Part shown: piece by piece, positions 30,621 through 37,826 of the stretch
Position numbering within the stretch: the first letter of the stretch is position 1
Layout: every line of letters starts with the position of its first letter
From: Robiginitalea aestuariiviva
Lineage (GTDB): Bacteria > Bacteroidota > Bacteroidia > Flavobacteriales > Flavobacteriaceae
NCBI RefSeq assembly: GCF_029537735.1
Contig: NZ_JARPUQ010000001.1
Location: forward strand, 14,510 to 78,509
DNA length: 64,000 nucleotides
Direction of reading: 5' to 3'
Notes under the pieces: model-generated
Seen by the model: the letters and a program-made list of their open reading frames with translations, nothing else
Databases searched by the model: none
What the model was told of the DNA's origin: nothing
Program-made: the position numbers and the translations under genes

Positions 30621-31208
30621 ATGAAAAAGCAAATCATTACCCTGGCCCTGGCCCTGATGGCAGGAGGCGCCGCCCTGGCCACAGAACCGGCCGTTGAGAA
30701 AAAGGAAGTGAACACCGAAAAGAGCACCGTAACCTGGAAGGCCTACAAGGTGACTGGTTCCCACACCGGGACCGTAGCCCTGAAATCCGGATCCCTGATG
30801 TTCGAGGACGGACAATTGAGCGGAGGCGAGTTTGCCGTAGACATGACCTCCCTGACCGCTACCGACCTGGAAGGCGAATGGCGCGACAAGCTGGTAGGCC
30901 ACCTGAAGTCCGACGATTTCTTCTCCACGGCCAGCCACCCGGAATCCACCCTGGTATTCACCAGCATCAAGGCCAACGGGAAGAACTCCTACGAAGTAAC
31001 CGGCGACCTCACCATCAAGGGGATCACCAAGCCTGTGACCTTTGACCTGTCCGTATACGGCAGCAAGGCAACCGCCACCATGAAGATCGACCGGGCCGAG
31101 TACGACGTACGCTATGGCTCAGGCAGCTTCTTTGACGACCTGGGAGACAAAACCATCTACGATGAGTTTGACCTGGTAGTAGACCTGGAATGGGATACCG
31201 CCAGCTAA
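30621..31208 (+). CDS. Secreted YceI-family protein
   Basis: 195 residues from the ATG at 30621, with a signal peptide (KKQIITLALALMAGGAALA, cleavage near ALA-TEP). The YceI/lipocalin-like barrel shows STVTWKAYKVTGSHTGTVAL, GEFAVDMTSLTATDLEG, LKSDDFFSTASHPESTLVF and TIKGITKPVTFDLSV. These periplasmic proteins bind isoprenoid-like lipids such as quinone precursors, which fits the co-transcribed flavin reductase. A terminator follows directly. Confidence 0.93.
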   Translation: MKKQIITLALALMAGGAALATEPAVEKKEVNTEKSTVTWKAYKVTGSHTGTVALKSGSLMFEDGQLSGGEFAVDMTSLTATDLEGEWRDKLVGHLKSDDFFSTASHPESTLVFTSIKANGKNSYEVTGDLTIKGITKPVTFDLSVYGSKATATMKIDRAEYDVRYGSGSFFDDLGDKTIYDEFDLVVDLEWDTAS

Positions 31209-31223
31209 ACGGTACCACGGAAA

Positions 31224-31254
31224 GACCGGTCCTTGATGGGCCGGTTTTTTTTTT
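31224..31254 (+). terminator. Intrinsic terminator after the YceI gene
   Basis: ACCGG-T-CC, a 5-nt loop and GG-G-CCGGT form a stem followed by ten Ts ending at 31254. Confidence 0.88.
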
Positions 31255-31266
31255 GGCCTGAAATGA

Positions 31267-31297
31267 TTGGGAAAAATAAGATTTCGTTCTATCTTTG
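31267..31297 (+). promoter_or_regulatory. trp operon promoter
   Basis: TTG at 31267-31269 and TATCTTTG at 31290-31297 are 20 bp apart, matching the Bacteroidota promoter. The predicted start is only 0-5 nt before the leader peptide ATG at 31305. Confidence 0.75.
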
Positions 31298-31304
31298 AAA
31301 TCTC

Positions 31305-31361
31305 ATGAAACCGAATTTCCATACAATCTGGTGGTGGCTGCAACTTCACGAAACCCCGTGA
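31305..31361 (+). CDS. trpL: trp operon leader peptide with three consecutive Trp codons
   Basis: An 18-codon reading frame, MKPNFHTIWWWLQLHETP, whose codons 9-11 (31329-31337) are TGG TGG TGG. It lies between a good promoter and an intrinsic terminator, 84 nt before trpE. Ribosome stalling at the Trp codons when charged tRNA-Trp is scarce would control formation of the terminator. If transcription starts where predicted, the mRNA is nearly leaderless. Confidence 0.85.
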   Translation: MKPNFHTIWWWLQLHETP

Positions 31362-31420
31362 CCTGAGCCCCTATGGTTGTATTTCGAATAAAGGCTTGTC
31401 TGTCACGACAGGCCTTTTTT
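31360..31420 (+). promoter_or_regulatory. trp attenuator (antiterminator and terminator)
   Basis: AGGCTTGTC (31392-31400), a 6-nt loop and GACAGGCCT (31407-31415) form the terminator, followed by Ts to 31420. A competing pairing uses GAC...AGCC at 31360-31369, which overlaps the leader stop codon, with GGCT.GTC at 31393-31400. A ribosome at the stop codon would cover this region and allow termination, while one stalled at the Trp codons would leave it free. A further 8-bp pairing (31321-31328 with 31375-31382) joins the codons before the Trp run to the spacer. Confidence 0.8.
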
Positions 31421-31445
31421 CGTGGAAAACATTAAGCCAAAATAC

Positions 31446-32843
31446 ATGTCTTACCCTCTGAAGACGTTTTACAAGAAGATCCTGGCAGATACCATTACGC
31501 CGGTGAGCGTATACCTGAAAATCAGGGACCGCTTTCCCGGCAGCATCCTGCTGGAGAGTAGCGACTACCACGCCAACGATAACTCCTTTTCCTATATCTG
31601 CTGCAATCCCATTGCCAGCTTCCGGGTGCAGGACAATACCCTGTATCGCCAGTACCCGGATGGTAAAAAGGAGCAACAGGCCATAGGCCCGGACACGGAT
31701 GTCGCCCTGGAAATCCATGCCTTTGCCCGGCAGTTCAAGGTTGCGGATAACGATTTCAAGTTCATCCACAGTGGGTTATTTGGCTATATGGCTTACGATG
31801 CGGTCCGGTATTTCGAAGATGTGGAGATCGGGCGCAAGCCGGATTCTGCAGACATCCCCGACATCTATTACGCCGTATACCAGAACATCATTGCCATAAA
31901 CCACTTTAAGAACGAGGCTTACCTCTTTGCCCACAGTTATGAGGGGGACAACAACCTCTCCCAGCTGGAGCAGCTGCTGAGCGTACAGACCTTTGCCTCC
32001 TACCGCTTTACCCGGGAAGGGGATCGGGCCTCCAACCTGGAGGATACAGAATTCCTGGAGCAGGTGGAACTGGCCAAAAAACACTGCGCCCGGGGCGATG
32101 TATTCCAGCTGGTCCTCTCCCGCAGGTTTGCCCAGGGATTTAAAGGAGATGAATTCAACGTATACCGGGCCCTGAGGTCCATTAACCCCTCCCCCTACCT
32201 CTTCTACTTCGACTACGGGGATTTCAAGATCTTCGGCAGCTCTCCCGAAGCCCAGCTGGTGGTCAAGGACGGTAAGGCCGAAATCCACCCCATTGCAGGC
32301 ACCTTCAGGCGCACCGGGAACGACGAGGAAGACGCCCAGCTGGCCAAGGCCCTGGCTGCGGACGAAAAAGAAAATGCGGAACACGTGATGCTGGTAGACC
32401 TGGCCCGCAACGACCTGAGCCGCAACGGGAATACGGTGCAGGTGGAAACCTACCGGGAGGTGCAGTATTTCTCGCATGTGATTCACCTGGTTTCCAAGGT
32501 TACCGGCCTGAAGAAAAAGGACATCCCTACCATGAAGGTGGTGGCGGACACCTTCCCTGCCGGCACCCTGAGCGGGGCACCCAAACACATGGCCATGCAG
32601 CTCATTGAGCGCTACGAGAAAACCAGCCGGTCATACTACGGGGGAGCCATCGGGTTTATGGCCTTCGATGGGGATTTTAACCACGCCATTATGATCCGGA
32701 CCTTCCTGAGCCGGAACCACAACCTCTACTACCAGGCAGGGGCAGGCCTGGTGGCCGCCTCCGACCCCGAGGCCGAACTGCAGGAAACCTACAACAAGCT
32801 CGGGGCGCTGAACCAGGCCCTGGAAATCGCTGAAACGCTGTAG
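31446..32843 (+). CDS. trpE: Anthranilate synthase component I
   Basis: 465 residues from the ATG at 31446. It converts chorismate plus ammonia to anthranilate. The N-terminal LLESSDY segment is the tryptophan feedback site of the family. The chorismate-binding core has INPSPYLFYFDYGDFKIFGSSPE, PIAGTFRRTG, DLARNDLSRN, PAGTLSGAPK and a C-terminal GAGLVAASDPEAELQET. The gene opens the trpEGDCFBA operon and ends 1 nt before trpG. Confidence 0.97.
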   Translation: MSYPLKTFYKKILADTITPVSVYLKIRDRFPGSILLESSDYHANDNSFSYICCNPIASFRVQDNTLYRQYPDGKKEQQAIGPDTDVALEIHAFARQFKVADNDFKFIHSGLFGYMAYDAVRYFEDVEIGRKPDSADIPDIYYAVYQNIIAINHFKNEAYLFAHSYEGDNNLSQLEQLLSVQTFASYRFTREGDRASNLEDTEFLEQVELAKKHCARGDVFQLVLSRRFAQGFKGDEFNVYRALRSINPSPYLFYFDYGDFKIFGSSPEAQLVVKDGKAEIHPIAGTFRRTGNDEEDAQLAKALAADEKENAEHVMLVDLARNDLSRNGNTVQVETYREVQYFSHVIHLVSKVTGLKKKDIPTMKVVADTFPAGTLSGAPKHMAMQLIERYEKTSRSYYGGAIGFMAFDGDFNHAIMIRTFLSRNHNLYYQAGAGLVAASDPEAELQETYNKLGALNQALEIAETL

Positions 32844-32844
32844 T

Positions 32845-33414
32845 ATGAAAGAGGTACTGGTAATTGACAACTACGATAGTTTTACCTACAACCTGGTCCA
32901 TTACCTGGAGGAACTGGGGTGCCGGGTAACGGTGCGTCGGAACGACAAGCTGAGCCTGGAAGAACCTGAAGCCTTTGCGCATATCGTGCTTTCCCCCGGG
33001 CCCGGCATCCCGGAGGAAGCCGGTTTGCTGAAGGCGATCATTGAAAAATACGCCCCCACCAAACGGATCTTTGGCGTTTGCCTGGGGCAACAAGCCATAG
33101 GGGAAGTCTTTGGCGGCAGGCTCATCAACCTGGACCAGGTGTACCACGGGGTGGCTACCGGCATCCGCGTAACCCGGGAAGATATCCTCTTTAGCGGGCT
33201 GCCACGGGAACTGCAGGTAGGCCGCTACCATTCCTGGGTGGTAGACCCGGACCTGCCCGAGGCCCTGGAGGCCACTTCGGTGGACGCTTCGGGCCAGGTC
33301 ATGTCCCTGAGGCACCGCACCTACGATGTACGGGCCGTACAATTCCACCCGGAATCCGTCCTTACCCCCGAAGGCAAACAAATGCTTGCGAACTGGCTAA
33401 ACGAAGACGCATGA
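32845..33414 (+). CDS. trpG: Anthranilate synthase component II (glutamine amidotransferase)
   Basis: 189 residues, a class I glutamine amidotransferase. It shows DNYDSFTYNLVHYL, LSPGPGIPEEAG, the nucleophile Cys in FGVCLGQQAIGE, and the His-Glu pair in VQFHPESVLT. It supplies ammonia to TrpE. It overlaps trpD by 4 nt (ATGA). It could also serve p-aminobenzoate synthesis as PabA, as is common for this family. Confidence 0.96.
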   Translation: MKEVLVIDNYDSFTYNLVHYLEELGCRVTVRRNDKLSLEEPEAFAHIVLSPGPGIPEEAGLLKAIIEKYAPTKRIFGVCLGQQAIGEVFGGRLINLDQVYHGVATGIRVTREDILFSGLPRELQVGRYHSWVVDPDLPEALEATSVDASGQVMSLRHRTYDVRAVQFHPESVLTPEGKQMLANWLNEDA

Positions 33415-34406
33415 AAGCAACTCTGAACAAACTAATTGAACACCAGCTCCTGACCCGGCTGGAGGCCCGGCAGGTCCTGGTCGATATTGCTTCCGGTACC
33501 TATAACACCAGCCAGGTGGCGGCCTTCCTGACCGTGTTTATGATGCGCAGCATCAGCACCGAAGAGCTGGAAGGCTTCCGGGACGCCCTGCTGGAGCTTT
33601 GCAAAGCCGTAGACCTGGGCGATTACGAGCCCATAGACCTGTGCGGCACGGGCGGGGACGGCAAAAACACCTTCAACATCTCCACCCTGGCCTCCTTTGT
33701 GACGGCCGGGGCCGGGGTGCCCGTGGCCAAGCACGGGAACTACGGGGTTTCCTCTAAATGCGGTAGCAGTAACGTGATGGAGTTCCTGGGCATCCGCTTC
33801 ACGGACGATTCCGATTTCCTGAGGCGGTGTATGGACCAGGCGGGGATATGCATCCTGCACGCCCCCCTCTTTCACCCGGCCATGAAACAGGTGGCGCCCA
33901 TCCGGCGGGAACTGGGCGTAAAGACCTTTTTCAACATGCTGGGGCCCATGGTAAACCCGGCCTTCCCGAAATACCAGATGGTAGGGGTCTTTAACCTGGA
34001 ACTGGCCCGGATGTACGGCTATCTCTACCAGAACACAGACAAGACCTACAGCATCCTTCACGCCCTGGACGGGTATGACGAAATCTCCCTGACCGGGCCG
34101 GCCAAGTGGATCGGATCGGCCGGCGAGGGCATCCTGCAACCGGAGGACTTCGGGTTACAGGCCCTGAGCCCAGCCGATATTGCCGGGGGGGACCAAATTG
34201 AAGATGCTGCCCGTATTTTTCTGGAAGTGCTCCAGGGCAAGGCCACCGATGCCCAAAACCAGGTGGTATGCGCCAATGCCGGGCTGGCCATTGCCACAGT
34301 ACAAGGCTGCAGCCCGCTGGAGGGCTACCAACGGGCCCAGGAATCCCTGGCTTCCGGTAAGGCCCTGCAAGCGTTCCGCACCCTTCAAAAACTGAGCGAA
34401 CCATGA
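33411..34406 (+). CDS. trpD: Anthranilate phosphoribosyltransferase
   Basis: 331 residues. It transfers phosphoribose from PRPP to anthranilate. Key motifs are LCGTGGDGKNTFNISTL (PRPP binding), VAKHGNYGVSSKCGSSNVME, and FNMLGPMVNPA. It is stand-alone, not fused to TrpG. It overlaps trpG at its start and trpC at its end by 4 nt each, so translation is coupled. Confidence 0.97.
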   Translation: MKATLNKLIEHQLLTRLEARQVLVDIASGTYNTSQVAAFLTVFMMRSISTEELEGFRDALLELCKAVDLGDYEPIDLCGTGGDGKNTFNISTLASFVTAGAGVPVAKHGNYGVSSKCGSSNVMEFLGIRFTDDSDFLRRCMDQAGICILHAPLFHPAMKQVAPIRRELGVKTFFNMLGPMVNPAFPKYQMVGVFNLELARMYGYLYQNTDKTYSILHALDGYDEISLTGPAKWIGSAGEGILQPEDFGLQALSPADIAGGDQIEDAARIFLEVLQGKATDAQNQVVCANAGLAIATVQGCSPLEGYQRAQESLASGKALQAFRTLQKLSEP

Positions 34407-35188
34407 ATATCCTACAGCAAATAGCAGCCGACAAAAGGCGGGAAATTACCCTGAAAAAAACCTGTGTGCCGGAAGCCCAGCTTCGCGGGAGCGCGCTTTT
34501 TTCCATGCCCACCCGCTCCTTGAAAGCCTCTCTTGAAGCCCGCCCCTTCGGGATCATTGCCGAACACAAAAGGCGGTCTCCTTCCCGGGAAGTCATTAAC
34601 CAGAGTGTCCCCCTGCCCGCCGTGGTGGGCGGGTACGACGCAGCCGGGGCCGGGGGTGTTTCCGTCCTGACCGATGGCACCTACTTTGGCGGCTCCCTGG
34701 AAGACCTGCTGCTGGCCCGGGCCACAACTGATTTGCCGCTGCTTCGCAAGGAATTTATCCTGGACCCCTACCAGCTGCTGGAGGCACGGGCCTACGGGGC
34801 TGATGCCATATTGCTGATCGCGGCCCTGCTTCCTGCGGAACGGGTTACCGCCCTGACCCACGAGGCCCATGAGCTGGGGCTGGAGGTGCTCCTGGAGGTA
34901 CATGACCAGGAAGAACTGGACGACAACCTGGAGTGCGGTGCAGACCTTTTCGGGGTGAACAACCGCAACCTGAAAACCTTCGAGGTGAGCCTGAAGACCA
35001 GCCGGCAACTGGCCCCCCATATCCCGGAAGGGGCCCTGAAGGTATCGGAGAGCGGGCTGGACAGGCCCGAAGAACTCCGGGAATTACACGCCCTGGGCTA
35101 CCGCGGCTTTTTGATGGGCGAACGTTTTATGAAGCACGAGGACCCGGGGCGCGCCCTGGAGTTATTCCTCCAAACCCTGACTCCGTGA
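34403..35188 (+). CDS. trpC: Indole-3-glycerol phosphate synthase
   Basis: 261 residues in a TIM barrel. It shows IIAEHKRRSPSREVIN (catalytic Lys), VSVLTDGTYFGGS, LRKEFILDPYQ, LEVHDQEELD, GVNNRNLKTFEV and SESGLDRPEEL. Converts CdRP to indole-3-glycerol phosphate. It overlaps trpD by 4 nt and trpF by 4 nt. Confidence 0.97.
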   Translation: MNILQQIAADKRREITLKKTCVPEAQLRGSALFSMPTRSLKASLEARPFGIIAEHKRRSPSREVINQSVPLPAVVGGYDAAGAGGVSVLTDGTYFGGSLEDLLLARATTDLPLLRKEFILDPYQLLEARAYGADAILLIAALLPAERVTALTHEAHELGLEVLLEVHDQEELDDNLECGADLFGVNNRNLKTFEVSLKTSRQLAPHIPEGALKVSESGLDRPEELRELHALGYRGFLMGERFMKHEDPGRALELFLQTLTP

Positions 35189-35859
35189 AACTGAAAGTCT
35201 GCGGCATGAAACACAACCCGGGTGCCATTGCCCGGTTGCACCCGGATTACCTGGGCTTTATTTTCTGGGAACCCAGCCCCCGCAACTTTGGCGGGCCGCC
35301 CCCGGAAGGCCTTTCCAAGGGCCCGGTGCCCGCCGGGGTTTTTGTGGATGCCACGGCCGATGCCATCCTGGAAAAATGCCGGGACTTTGGCCTGGGTATG
35401 GTGCAGTTACACGGGAAAGAAAGTGCAGCCTTTTGCGGCCACCTGAAAAACCGCCTGGAAGACCTGGGCCTGGATGTACTCCTGGTTAAGGCCTTCGCCG
35501 TGGGGCCGGGTTTTGATTTTGAAGCCCTACAGCCCTATCTGCAGGCCTGCGACGCTTTCCTCTTCGACAGCAGGGGCCCTATGCCCGGCGGGAATGGCAA
35601 GGCATTCGACTGGACCCTCCTGGCTGCCTACCCCTTTGACCTCCCGTATTTCCTGAGTGGGGGGATTGGTCCGGAGTCAGTGCCGGAACTGGAGGCCTTT
35701 TTCCAACAACCTGCCGCCCGCAGGTGCATGGCCATCGACATCAATAGCGGGTTTGAGACCCGGCCGGGCGAGAAAGACCCCGCCCGCATTAAAACCTTTA
35801 TGAACCAGGCCTTCTGGACTACCAAACGCGGCCTGAAAAGCACGGAAAAAAATGAGTAA
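35185..35859 (+). CDS. trpF: Phosphoribosylanthranilate isomerase
   Basis: 224 residues starting with GTG at 35185, where the stop of trpC and this start share GTGA. This matches the family N-terminus ([23 protein letters not shown]). A longer frame reaching back into trpC has no homology-like sequence. Catalytic Cys is in KVCGMK and the C-terminal phosphate-binding loop is [10 protein letters not shown]. The end overlaps trpB by 8 nt. Confidence 0.95.
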
Positions 35860-37039
35860 ATACCATGTAGACGAACACGGGTTTTACGGGGAATTCGGGG
35901 GGGCGTTTATCCCCGAGATGCTCTATCCGAATGTAGAAGAGCTGCGGCAGCATTACCTGGAAATCATGGCCTCCGAAAGCTTCCAGCAGGAATTCCGAAA
36001 GTTGCTGCGCGATTACGTGGGCCGGCCCACCCCCCTCTATTACGCCGAGCGCCTGTCCGAGAAATACGGCAGCCGGATCTACCTGAAACGGGAAGACCTC
36101 TGCCACACCGGGGCACACAAGGTAAACAACACCATTGGCCAGATCCTGATGGCCAAGCGCCTGGGTAAAAAGCGCATCATCGCCGAAACCGGTGCCGGGC
36201 AGCACGGGGTGGCCACGGCCACGGTCTGTGCCCTGATGGGCCTGCCCTGCGTGGTCTATATGGGAGAGGTGGACATTGCCCGCCAGGCGCCCAATGTGGC
36301 CCGCATGAAGTTGCTGGGCGCGGAAGTGCGCCCCGCCCGTTCTGGGAGCCGAACCCTGAAGGACGCCACCAATGAAGCCATCCGGGACTGGATCAACAAC
36401 CCGGAAGACACCCACTACATTATAGGCTCCGTGGTGGGCCCCCACCCCTACCCGGACATGGTGGCCCGCTTTCAGGCGGTAATCTCGGAGGAGATTCGCC
36501 ACCAGCTCCTGGAAGCCGAAGGCCGCACGGACCCGGATTACCTGATTGCCTGCGTGGGGGGCGGCAGCAACGCCGCCGGTACGTACTACCACTATCTGGA
36601 CCAGGAAGAAGTTCAGATTATTGCTGCAGAGGCTGCCGGCAAAGGCGTGGATACAGGCGAGAGCGCGGCCACCTCGGCCCTGGGCCGGGTGGGCATCATT
36701 CACGCCAGCAAGACCCTGCTCATGCAAACCGCGGACGGCCAAATCACCGAACCCTACTCTATTTCGGCCGGGCTGGACTACCCCGGGGTGGGGCCCATGC
36801 ACGCCCACCTCTTCCAAACCGGGCGGGCGCAATTTATTCCGGTTACCGATGCCCAGGCCATGGCGGGCGGGCGGGAACTGGCCCGCCTGGAAGGGATCAT
36901 CCCCGCCATCGAATCTTCCCACGCCTTTGCCGTACTGGAAATGGGGGCCGTGCCCCCGGACAGCCTGGTGGTGATCAACCTCTCCGGGCGGGGGGACAAA
37001 GACCTGCAAACCTATATCGATTACTTTGATTTAACCTGA
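35852..37039 (+). CDS. trpB: Tryptophan synthase beta subunit
   Basis: 395 residues, PLP-dependent, joins indole and serine. It shows [16 protein letters not shown], the PLP Lys in [27 protein letters not shown], the phosphate loop [10 protein letters not shown] and HAFAVLEMG. It is a TrpB1-type partner for TrpA. trpA starts 4 nt after its stop. Confidence 0.98.
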
Positions 37040-37043
37040 AGCC

Positions 37044-37826
37044 ATGGCTGAAACCCAATCCCAAAACCGCATACACCAGGCCCTGGAAAAACCCGGGAAA
37101 CTGCTCTCCATCTATTACACTGCCGGCTTCCCCAACCTGGAGGACACCGTACCCATTTTGGAGGAATTACAGGCGGCCGGGGCCGATATGGTGGAAATCG
37201 GGCTGCCATTTAGCGACCCCCTGGCCGATGGCCCCACCATTCAGGAAAGCTCCACCCGGGCCCTGCGTAACGGCATGCATACGGAACTCCTTTTTGAACA
37301 GCTGAAAGATGTCCGCAAAACCGTAGACCTCCCCCTGATCCTGATGGGGTATTTTAACCCCGTGCTGCAATACGGGGTAGAGGCCTTCTGCCGCAAATGC
37401 AAGGAAGTGGGGATAGACGGGCTTATCCTGCCAGACCTGCCCCTGGAGATCTACCAGCGGGACTACCAGCACCTGATGGCCCCCTACGGCCTAAGCATGG
37501 TTTTTCTGATCAGCCCCCAAACCGGGGAGGCGCGCATCCGGCAGATCGATGCGGCTTCGGATAGCTTTATCTACATGGTGAGCTCTGCCAGCACCACCGG
37601 GGTCCAGGACCAGTTCGGCCAGGGTCAGGATGCCTATTTTGACCGCATCCATGCTATGGAACTCAAGCACCCTCAGGTGGTGGGCTTCGGGATTTCGGAT
37701 GCCCAGAGTTTCCAAAAAGCCACCCGCACGGCCAAAGGGGCCATTATCGGGTCCGCCTTTATCCGCCTGCTGGAACGGGAAGGCCTGGGCGGTATCCGCA
37801 ACTTTATCGAAAACATACGCCCATGA
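37044..37826 (+). CDS. trpA: Tryptophan synthase alpha subunit
   Basis: 260 residues in a TIM barrel. The catalytic Glu is in MVEIGLPFSDPLADGP (VEIG), and the second acid in GLILPDLPLE. VSSASTTGVQ and the FGISDAQ/GAIIGSAFIRL phosphate site follow. It cleaves indole-3-glycerol phosphate and channels indole to TrpB. Its stop overlaps the start of the next small gene by 4 nt. Confidence 0.97.
   Translation: MAETQSQNRIHQALEKPGKLLSIYYTAGFPNLEDTVPILEELQAAGADMVEIGLPFSDPLADGPTIQESSTRALRNGMHTELLFEQLKDVRKTVDLPLILMGYFNPVLQYGVEAFCRKCKEVGIDGLILPDLPLEIYQRDYQHLMAPYGLSMVFLISPQTGEARIRQIDAASDSFIYMVSSASTTGVQDQFGQGQDAYFDRIHAMELKHPQVVGFGISDAQSFQKATRTAKGAIIGSAFIRLLEREGLGGIRNFIENIRP

Follow-up and report, generated by a model that had tools for sequence, protein, structure and literature searches.

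A very probable ribosome-mediated attenuator with a candidate two-part antiterminator upstream of the trp operon of Robiginitalea aestuariiviva

How might a flavobacterium, a member of the large phylum Bacteroidota in which both transcription and translation start in ways unlike those of E. coli, match expression of its tryptophan genes to the supply of tryptophan? The question is raised by a short leader in Robiginitalea aestuariiviva, carried in the window (the whole stretch of 64,000 nucleotides analysed here). Pfam matches downstream of it fit trpE, G, D, C, F, B and A, in that order, i.e. trpE (31446-32843; PF00425, PF04715), trpG (32845-33414; PF00117), trpD (33411-34406; PF00591, PF02885), trpC (34403-35188; PF00218), trpF (35185-35859; PF00697, start codon uncertain), trpB (35852-37039; PF00291 and its position before trpA) and trpA (37044-37826; PF00290), all on the + strand like every feature of the leader, upstream of which a YceI-like protein is encoded (Pfam). 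The GTG at 31422 was set aside as the trpE start, for which ATG 31446, at a position common to most relatives, is most likely. A preliminary description had read, in order, a promoter, a short ORF with Trp codons, a possible antiterminator, a terminator and trpEGDCFBA, and this order is borne out by the sequence, by Pfam and by all 89 usable relative loci. Computation shows which elements the leader has, how far relatives keep them and that their pairings exclude one another, whereas start site, stalling, timing and tryptophan response are inferred; we conclude that the leader very probably controls the trp operon by ribosome-mediated attenuation of transcription.

The leader RNA is predicted to begin almost at its first codon. 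The sequence TATCTTTG (31290-31297), recognisable also in relatives, agrees with the Bacteroidota sigma-A −7 box (TAnnTTTG), which according to excerpts of PMC9723704 sits at −12 to −5, and a TTG at 31267-31269, separated from it by a 20-nt spacer, is a candidate −33 element; by raw count such a TTG lies 17-24 nt upstream of the box in 81/89 loci. As the box in the window is 7 nt from the leader ATG, this placement predicts a transcription start near 31302 and a 5′ UTR of about 3 nt (31302-31304), leaving no room for a Shine-Dalgarno sequence. The nearest box (TAnnTTT, then G or A) ends 4-8 nt upstream of the leader ATG in 68/89 loci, for which the same placement gives a predicted 5′ UTR of 0-4 nt, and in the other 21 it is longer (14-22 nt in 19, 30 and 40 nt in one each). 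Excerpts of two transcript studies put leaderless mRNAs at 5.5% in F. psychrophilum (PMC9723704) and 5′ UTRs shorter than 10 nt at about 3.7% in B. thetaiotaomicron (PMC7366714). Scanning for generic sigma-70 promoters gave none where one would be needed, as expected for Bacteroidota. The near-leaderless start of the ORF is possibly new.

The leader ORF (31305-31361; ATG 31305, UGA 31359-31361) has 18 codons, encodes MKPNFHTIWWWLQLHETP and contains three tandem Trp codons, TGGTGGTGG (31329-31337), as the putative control codons. Taken by frequency alone neither motif says much, TGGTGGTGG occurring four times in the window against 0.75 expected and TANNTTTG 24 times against 26 expected, the latter uninformative by itself, so that position and conservation must carry the case; genome-wide, TGGTGGTGG has GGCTTGTC 45-75 nt downstream of it at one place only, the trp leader. 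Conservation was assessed in 10 congeneric genomes (the source genome included; TrpE in 10/10) together with the best 80 of 581 TrpE loci. Omitting L071, in which the contig ends inside trpE, and the paralogue L002, 89 usable loci with 87 distinct sequences remain, close kin by construction (TrpE identity 71% or more) that include Robiginitalea marina, Flagellimonas, Maribacter, Arenibacter, Zobellia, Cellulophaga, Kordia, Aquimarina and Flavobacterium; the leader of one congener (L008) is identical to that of R. marina (L012). The leader layout is present in 89/89, L056 and L076 having it beyond the 500 nt upstream that were scanned initially and both being recovered farther out. The Trp run is WWW in 87/89 loci, LWW in one and SWW in one. 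A chance Trp triplet was set aside given this presence in 89/89 loci, and the conserved Trp run and terminator, whose absence from close relatives had been named beforehand as telling against the reading, were found in every one. The ATG precedes the Trp run by 24 nt (8 codons) in 83/89 loci and by 21 nt (7 codons) in 6/89, a spacing tighter than reading alone would seem to need.

The leader ends in an intrinsic terminator, evident in sequence, fold and relatives, with a 28-base hairpin, AAAGGCUUGUC-UGUCAC-GACAGGCCUUU (31390-31417), and a T6 tract (31415-31420). A run of at least four T follows the hairpin in 88/89 loci, and the terminator bases UCAC ahead of the 3′ arm are identical in 85/87 distinct sequences, one base being changed in L039 and one in L090. 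The leader as a whole folds with a minimum free energy of −40.7 kcal/mol compared with −25.1 ± 3.3 for 200 shuffles, none of which is as low (z −4.7). In this minimum free energy fold an outer protector helix joins AUACAAUC (31321-31328) to GGUUGUAU (31375-31382), reading by eye ACAAAC/GUUUGU in several congeners, and an inner protector (1:2) joins UCACG (31346-31350) to CGUGA (31357-31361), the inner helix being CUUACG/CGUGAG in many relatives, with ambiguous pair counts. The protector columns are 72.1% paired, highest among the slides, and slid partners score higher on several other measures. Folding supports a protector that would sequester the antiterminator strand when the leader is not translated, on which the pair counts are ambiguous.

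The candidate antiterminator, defined by alignment and folding, is in two parts. Strand b, CGUGAC (31357-31362), holds the leader UGA and pairs with GUCACG (31402-31407), which is the terminator loop plus the first base of the 3′ arm, while strand a, UGAGCC (31364-31369), pairs with GGCUUG (31393-31398) in the 5′ arm. In the alignment the leader stop region is mostly UCGUGA and the loop running into the 3′ arm is its exact complement, UCACGA, and the second stretch complements GGCUU of the 5′ arm, as UGAGCC in the window and as AAGC or AAGUC in many other sequences. All six pairs of helix b form in 79/87 sequences and five in the remaining 8, the window among these. YGUGA stands 28 nt after the first Trp codon in 80/89 loci, 29 nt in eight and 26 nt in one, and it stays even in the 11/87 sequences in which the leader stop is 21, 33 or 36 nt after that codon instead of 30, so the motif is maintained for its RNA sequence as well as for the stop codon, and the reading that UCGUGA is conserved purely as a stop was set aside. 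The displaced stops, at 21-36 nt, are still near enough for the footprint of a terminating ribosome to cover YGUGA.

Comparison among relatives, by which the preliminary description had proposed to check the antiterminator for covariation, gave a divided answer. Cells of the antiterminator are paired in 84.8% of cases across the 87 sequences, against 20.7-46.7% for partners slid by 1-3 columns, and 12 cells show two-sided change against 2.7 ± 1.2 in shuffles (0/500); counted by pairs, two-sided change is seen in 2/12 in the family alignment, no more than shuffles give (225/500). Formal covariation is thin within the family because the strands barely vary. The clearest varying pair is the base after UGA, which is C-G in 10 sequences (congeners), A-U in 10, G-U in two, U-A in one and unpaired in 64. 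The leader stretch pairs with its own terminator better than its own shuffles do (p ≤ 0.05) in 73/87 sequences, these being related to one another, with a median z of −2.87.

We analysed the dependence of these pairings on ribosome position by folding transcripts cut off where the terminator 3′ arm begins, with the bases under the ribosome barred from pairing and its leading edge placed 12 nt downstream of the first A-site base. With no ribosome helix b has a mean probability of 0.19 (above 0.5 in 16/87 sequences), with a ribosome stalled at Trp codon 1, 2 or 3 it has 0.92, 0.96 or 0.97 (above 0.5 in 85/87 each), and with a ribosome at the stop codon 0.00 (0/87); the corresponding window values are 0.00 free, 0.99 stalled and 0.00 at stop. 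The zero at the stop codon follows largely from the mask, i.e. from the proposed mechanism itself, but the value without a ribosome is independent of the mask and reflects the predicted protector hairpin. The two failures in the stalled state are L079 (0.09-0.13) and L090 (0.00), the latter, with one loop base different, forming a longer pairing shifted by a few bases. When the 87 sequences are folded as full-length RNA, the mean terminator probability is 0.90-1.00 in every ribosome state, single values falling below 0.5 in 1, 4 and 7 of 87 at the three stalled positions. Since the finished terminator is on average strong in all states the switch must be kinetic, set by the order of folding.

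A mechanism consistent with these foldings can be proposed. Transcription would begin a few bases 5′ of the leader AUG. Where charged Trp-tRNA is plentiful the ribosome would reach the stop codon and cover CGUGAC, and with this strand covered the terminator (31390-31420) would form and trpEGDCFBA would not be transcribed. Where Trp-tRNA is scarce the ribosome would stall on the three UGG codons, its leading edge opening the protector hairpin and leaving CGUGACCUGAGCC free, which could pair in two helices with GGCUUG and GUCACG before the terminator is complete, such that polymerase reads on. If the leader were not translated, the protector hairpin would hold the antiterminator strand and the terminator would win.

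Near-invariance makes the pair counts within the family weak, and we therefore used a test across the class Bacteroidia in which leaders are matched with their own terminators or swapped. TrpE was searched for in 149 Bacteroidia genomes, of which 51 had matches at E ≤ 1e-60 (52 places), and upstream regions were taken for 40/52 (one of only 190 nt; L170 belongs to the window's own family). Under a permissive rule, which asks for WW or WxW in a short ORF and for a terminator after it, 31/40 regions qualify, against 0/40 on the reverse strand and 1/200 shuffles; under a strict rule (ATG, WW) 25/40 do so, against 0/40 and 0/200. The permissive rule did not recover L140, L147, L149, L152, L158, L159, L162, L167 and L175, although L162, outside the count, still has a WWW ORF and hairpin. 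By eye, a Trp leader stands before trpB, not trpE, in L133 and L173, loci of family f11. At L130 (G319:C26, 1-480) two complete Trp leaders, each a WWW ORF with a terminator, stand in tandem before a trpE-like gene, the second with a clear antiterminator (UGCGG.GACAA with UUGUC..CCGCA) and the first with a weak one only.

In 43 leader-terminator pairs (the 31 fetched loci, the window and 11 hand-picked other stretches) the matched duplex averages −14.7 kcal/mol compared with −10.1 (sd 0.46) when swapped, no permutation of 20,000 being as low, and with one representative per terminator type (26) the values are −16.2 and −11.0 (again 0/20,000). Dinucleotide-shuffled leaders give a mean of −9.6 (sd 0.36), and the stretch just 5′ of the Trp codons averages −5.1. 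Duplexes include GGGAAA/UUUCCC (L153), UGAAUCGG/CCGAUUCA (L154), GCCGGGU/ACCCGGC (L171), UGAACAGC/GCUGUUCA (L176) and, before trpB, GUCGUAAGG/CUUUACGGC (L173). Taken singly, only 25/43 pairings reach p ≤ 0.05 against leader shuffles, the own partner is best for the leader in 4/43 and for the terminator in 6/43, and in L119, L130a, L146, L160 and L170 the matched duplex is not or hardly better than the swapped. Occlusion folding of the 31 fetched loci gives 1.8 expected antiterminator pairs free, 10.0-10.9 stalled and 1.6 at the stop, with at least four expected pairs in 4/31, 29/31 and 2/31, respectively; L154 and L173 stay below four pairs in the stalled state, and in L139 and L148 the antiterminator persists with the ribosome at the stop, contrary to the scheme. 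These comparisons of sequence are evidence that the antiterminator changes together with the terminator across the class, while single loci vary. The antiterminator first drawn over the leader stop codon thus gains support from comparison, from occlusion folding and from the matched-versus-swapped test.

Other accounts of the leader must be set against attenuation by ribosome position. The operon might be controlled at its promoter or by another regulator, with the leader translated and the attenuator giving constant basal read-through only, as could be argued from the terminator that is on average strong in full-length folds wherever the ribosome stands. However, the spacing between Trp codons and pairing strand is fixed in 89/89 loci and the strand is kept without the stop in 11/87 sequences, which together ask for ribosome position as the explanation, and we consider such control improbable. 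A T-box or TRAP-type attenuator, either of which controls trp genes in Firmicutes, would need no translation of the leader, yet the leader ORF is conserved in frame and by eye there is no array of GAG/UAG triplets, of which a TRAP-regulated leader has about 11 ((G/U)AG). Moreover, cmscan of the whole window gives only five tRNAs at gathering score, with no T-box among its matches up to E 5 in 31200-31500, so that this account merits next to no credence.

The leader ORF could also act on translation of trpE through reinitiation or coupling, making the hairpin a by-product, and according to excerpts of PMC4833913 gene-proximal leader ORFs probably promote reinitiation in a number of phyla, among them the Bacteroidetes. 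Against this, the leader stop is 84 nt upstream of the trpE start in the window, the gap between terminator and trpE widens to 377-463 nt in 7 loci, often with a GIY-YIG ORF, and the hairpin keeps its T run of at least four in 88/89, making a role in reinitiation very unlikely. We accordingly retain ribosome-mediated transcription attenuation as the preferred reading.

In L017, L019, L030, L035, L056 and L076 a small ORF (about 1630-1970) lies between attenuator and trpE; that of L056 is GIY-YIG (PF01541, E 3.7e-16) and by eye the others resemble it, that of L030 less closely. The small ORF is accompanied by imperfect palindromes, ATTTCCGCGAAGGCGGAAAT being one, and in L068 gap and palindromes are present, the small ORF not being recovered by the rule used. 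ORF and palindromes together have the look of a small mobile element that inserted on the far side of the terminator from the leader. Elsewhere in the source genome, both on the reverse strand, L134 (G000:C2, near 1207-1330) has the ORF MKNMVSHHHSVVHAQAR with a hairpin and T tract before hisG, likely by its sequence a His attenuator, and L138 (G000:C1, near 1326-1460) has the ORF MRPTFFYSGLYFYFFFKRGTGPL with a GGGUCCCGUUUCAAACGGGAC-type hairpin and T tract before pheA, likewise a likely Phe attenuator. His-rich and Phe-rich leader ORFs with terminators in the same genome suggest a wider set.

It is an evenly balanced proposition, in our judgement, that Bacteroidia share a distinct design, in which the antiterminator strand starts just ahead of the Trp-paused ribosome, in many cases takes in the leader stop codon and pairs with both sides of the terminator (5′ arm; loop and 3′ arm), with sequences that change together between families, and in which the flavobacterial sensing ORF is mostly almost at the RNA 5′ end, so that a phylum with low Shine-Dalgarno use would load the sensing ribosome on a near-leaderless message. 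The exact bases given here allow coupled transcription and translation to be tested in Bacteroidota.

The geometry of E. coli trpL serves as the standard of comparison. The tandem Trp codons, the predicted mutually exclusive hairpins (antiterminator, terminator and a putative protector) and the position upstream of trpE are shared with it; here, however, the stop codon is inside the antiterminator strand, which pairs also with the terminator loop and 3′ arm, there are three Trp codons, the promoter is of the Bacteroidota kind and the predicted 5′ UTR is about 3 nt. Of the E. coli-type attenuation first proposed, ribosome-mediated attenuation thus stands as the best reading, while the geometry departs in the placing of the stop codon and in the pairing with loop and 3′ arm. 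Actinobacterial and rhizobial trp leaders are likewise ribosome-mediated outside the enterobacteria, in other phyla, and Sinorhizobium has a leaderless trpL. Experimental support for trp attenuation in Corynebacterium and Streptomyces is cited in excerpts of PMC4833913. In the open-licence literature we found no experiment on a Bacteroidota trp attenuator or its tryptophan response, the experimental papers found for this phylum being transcript maps.

The closest described element is the Rfam family RF01692 (Bacteroid-trp, 'Bacteroidete tryptophan peptide leader RNA'), for which excerpts of Weinberg et al. 2010 (PMC2864571) enter 'y' for RNA, 'y' for cis-regulation and 'n' for switch. In the window cmscan places it on 31285-31400 with 26.3 bits (E 0.6), below the gathering score of 49, the alignment keeping register (AUG, UGG run, GGCUUGUC) through the full model (positions 1-131 of 131), and in genome-scale searches the scan of the source genome gave no match to RF01692. 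Of 40 relatives, 23 have a match at E ≤ 0.1 and 11 score above the cut-off, including one congener (G004, 52.8 bits), and among 296 Bacteroidota genomes searched with stricter filters 29 match at E ≤ 0.001 and 27 pass. By position and register the window leader is homologous to leaders above this cut-off. Model and leader have AUG, tandem UGG and hairpin in the same order, ending on the terminator-opening AAAGGCUUGUC, but the model breaks off within the terminator 5′ arm, having one hairpin, no antiterminator and no complete terminator. The present analysis names the functional elements of an RNA switch of which the Rfam model describes a part, and the two-part antiterminator, absent from that model, is possibly new.

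F. psychrophilum belongs to the same family as the source organism, Flavobacteriaceae. Excerpts of PMC9723704 report 'strong clues' for leader-peptide attenuation upstream of its amino-acid operons and, at pheA and hisG, elements that no Rfam family matches ('trp' is absent from the main text), and excerpts of PMC6414381 describe Bacteroid-trp as conserved upstream of its trp operon and liken it to the E. coli leader; the antiterminator is not given, nor a tryptophan response shown, in the excerpts of either account. The leader is thus a known kind of regulator at an expected place, to which RF01692 and the two F. psychrophilum papers already point, and what is added here is the exact two-part antiterminator, evidence that it and the terminator change in concert throughout the class, and the predicted near-leaderless start.
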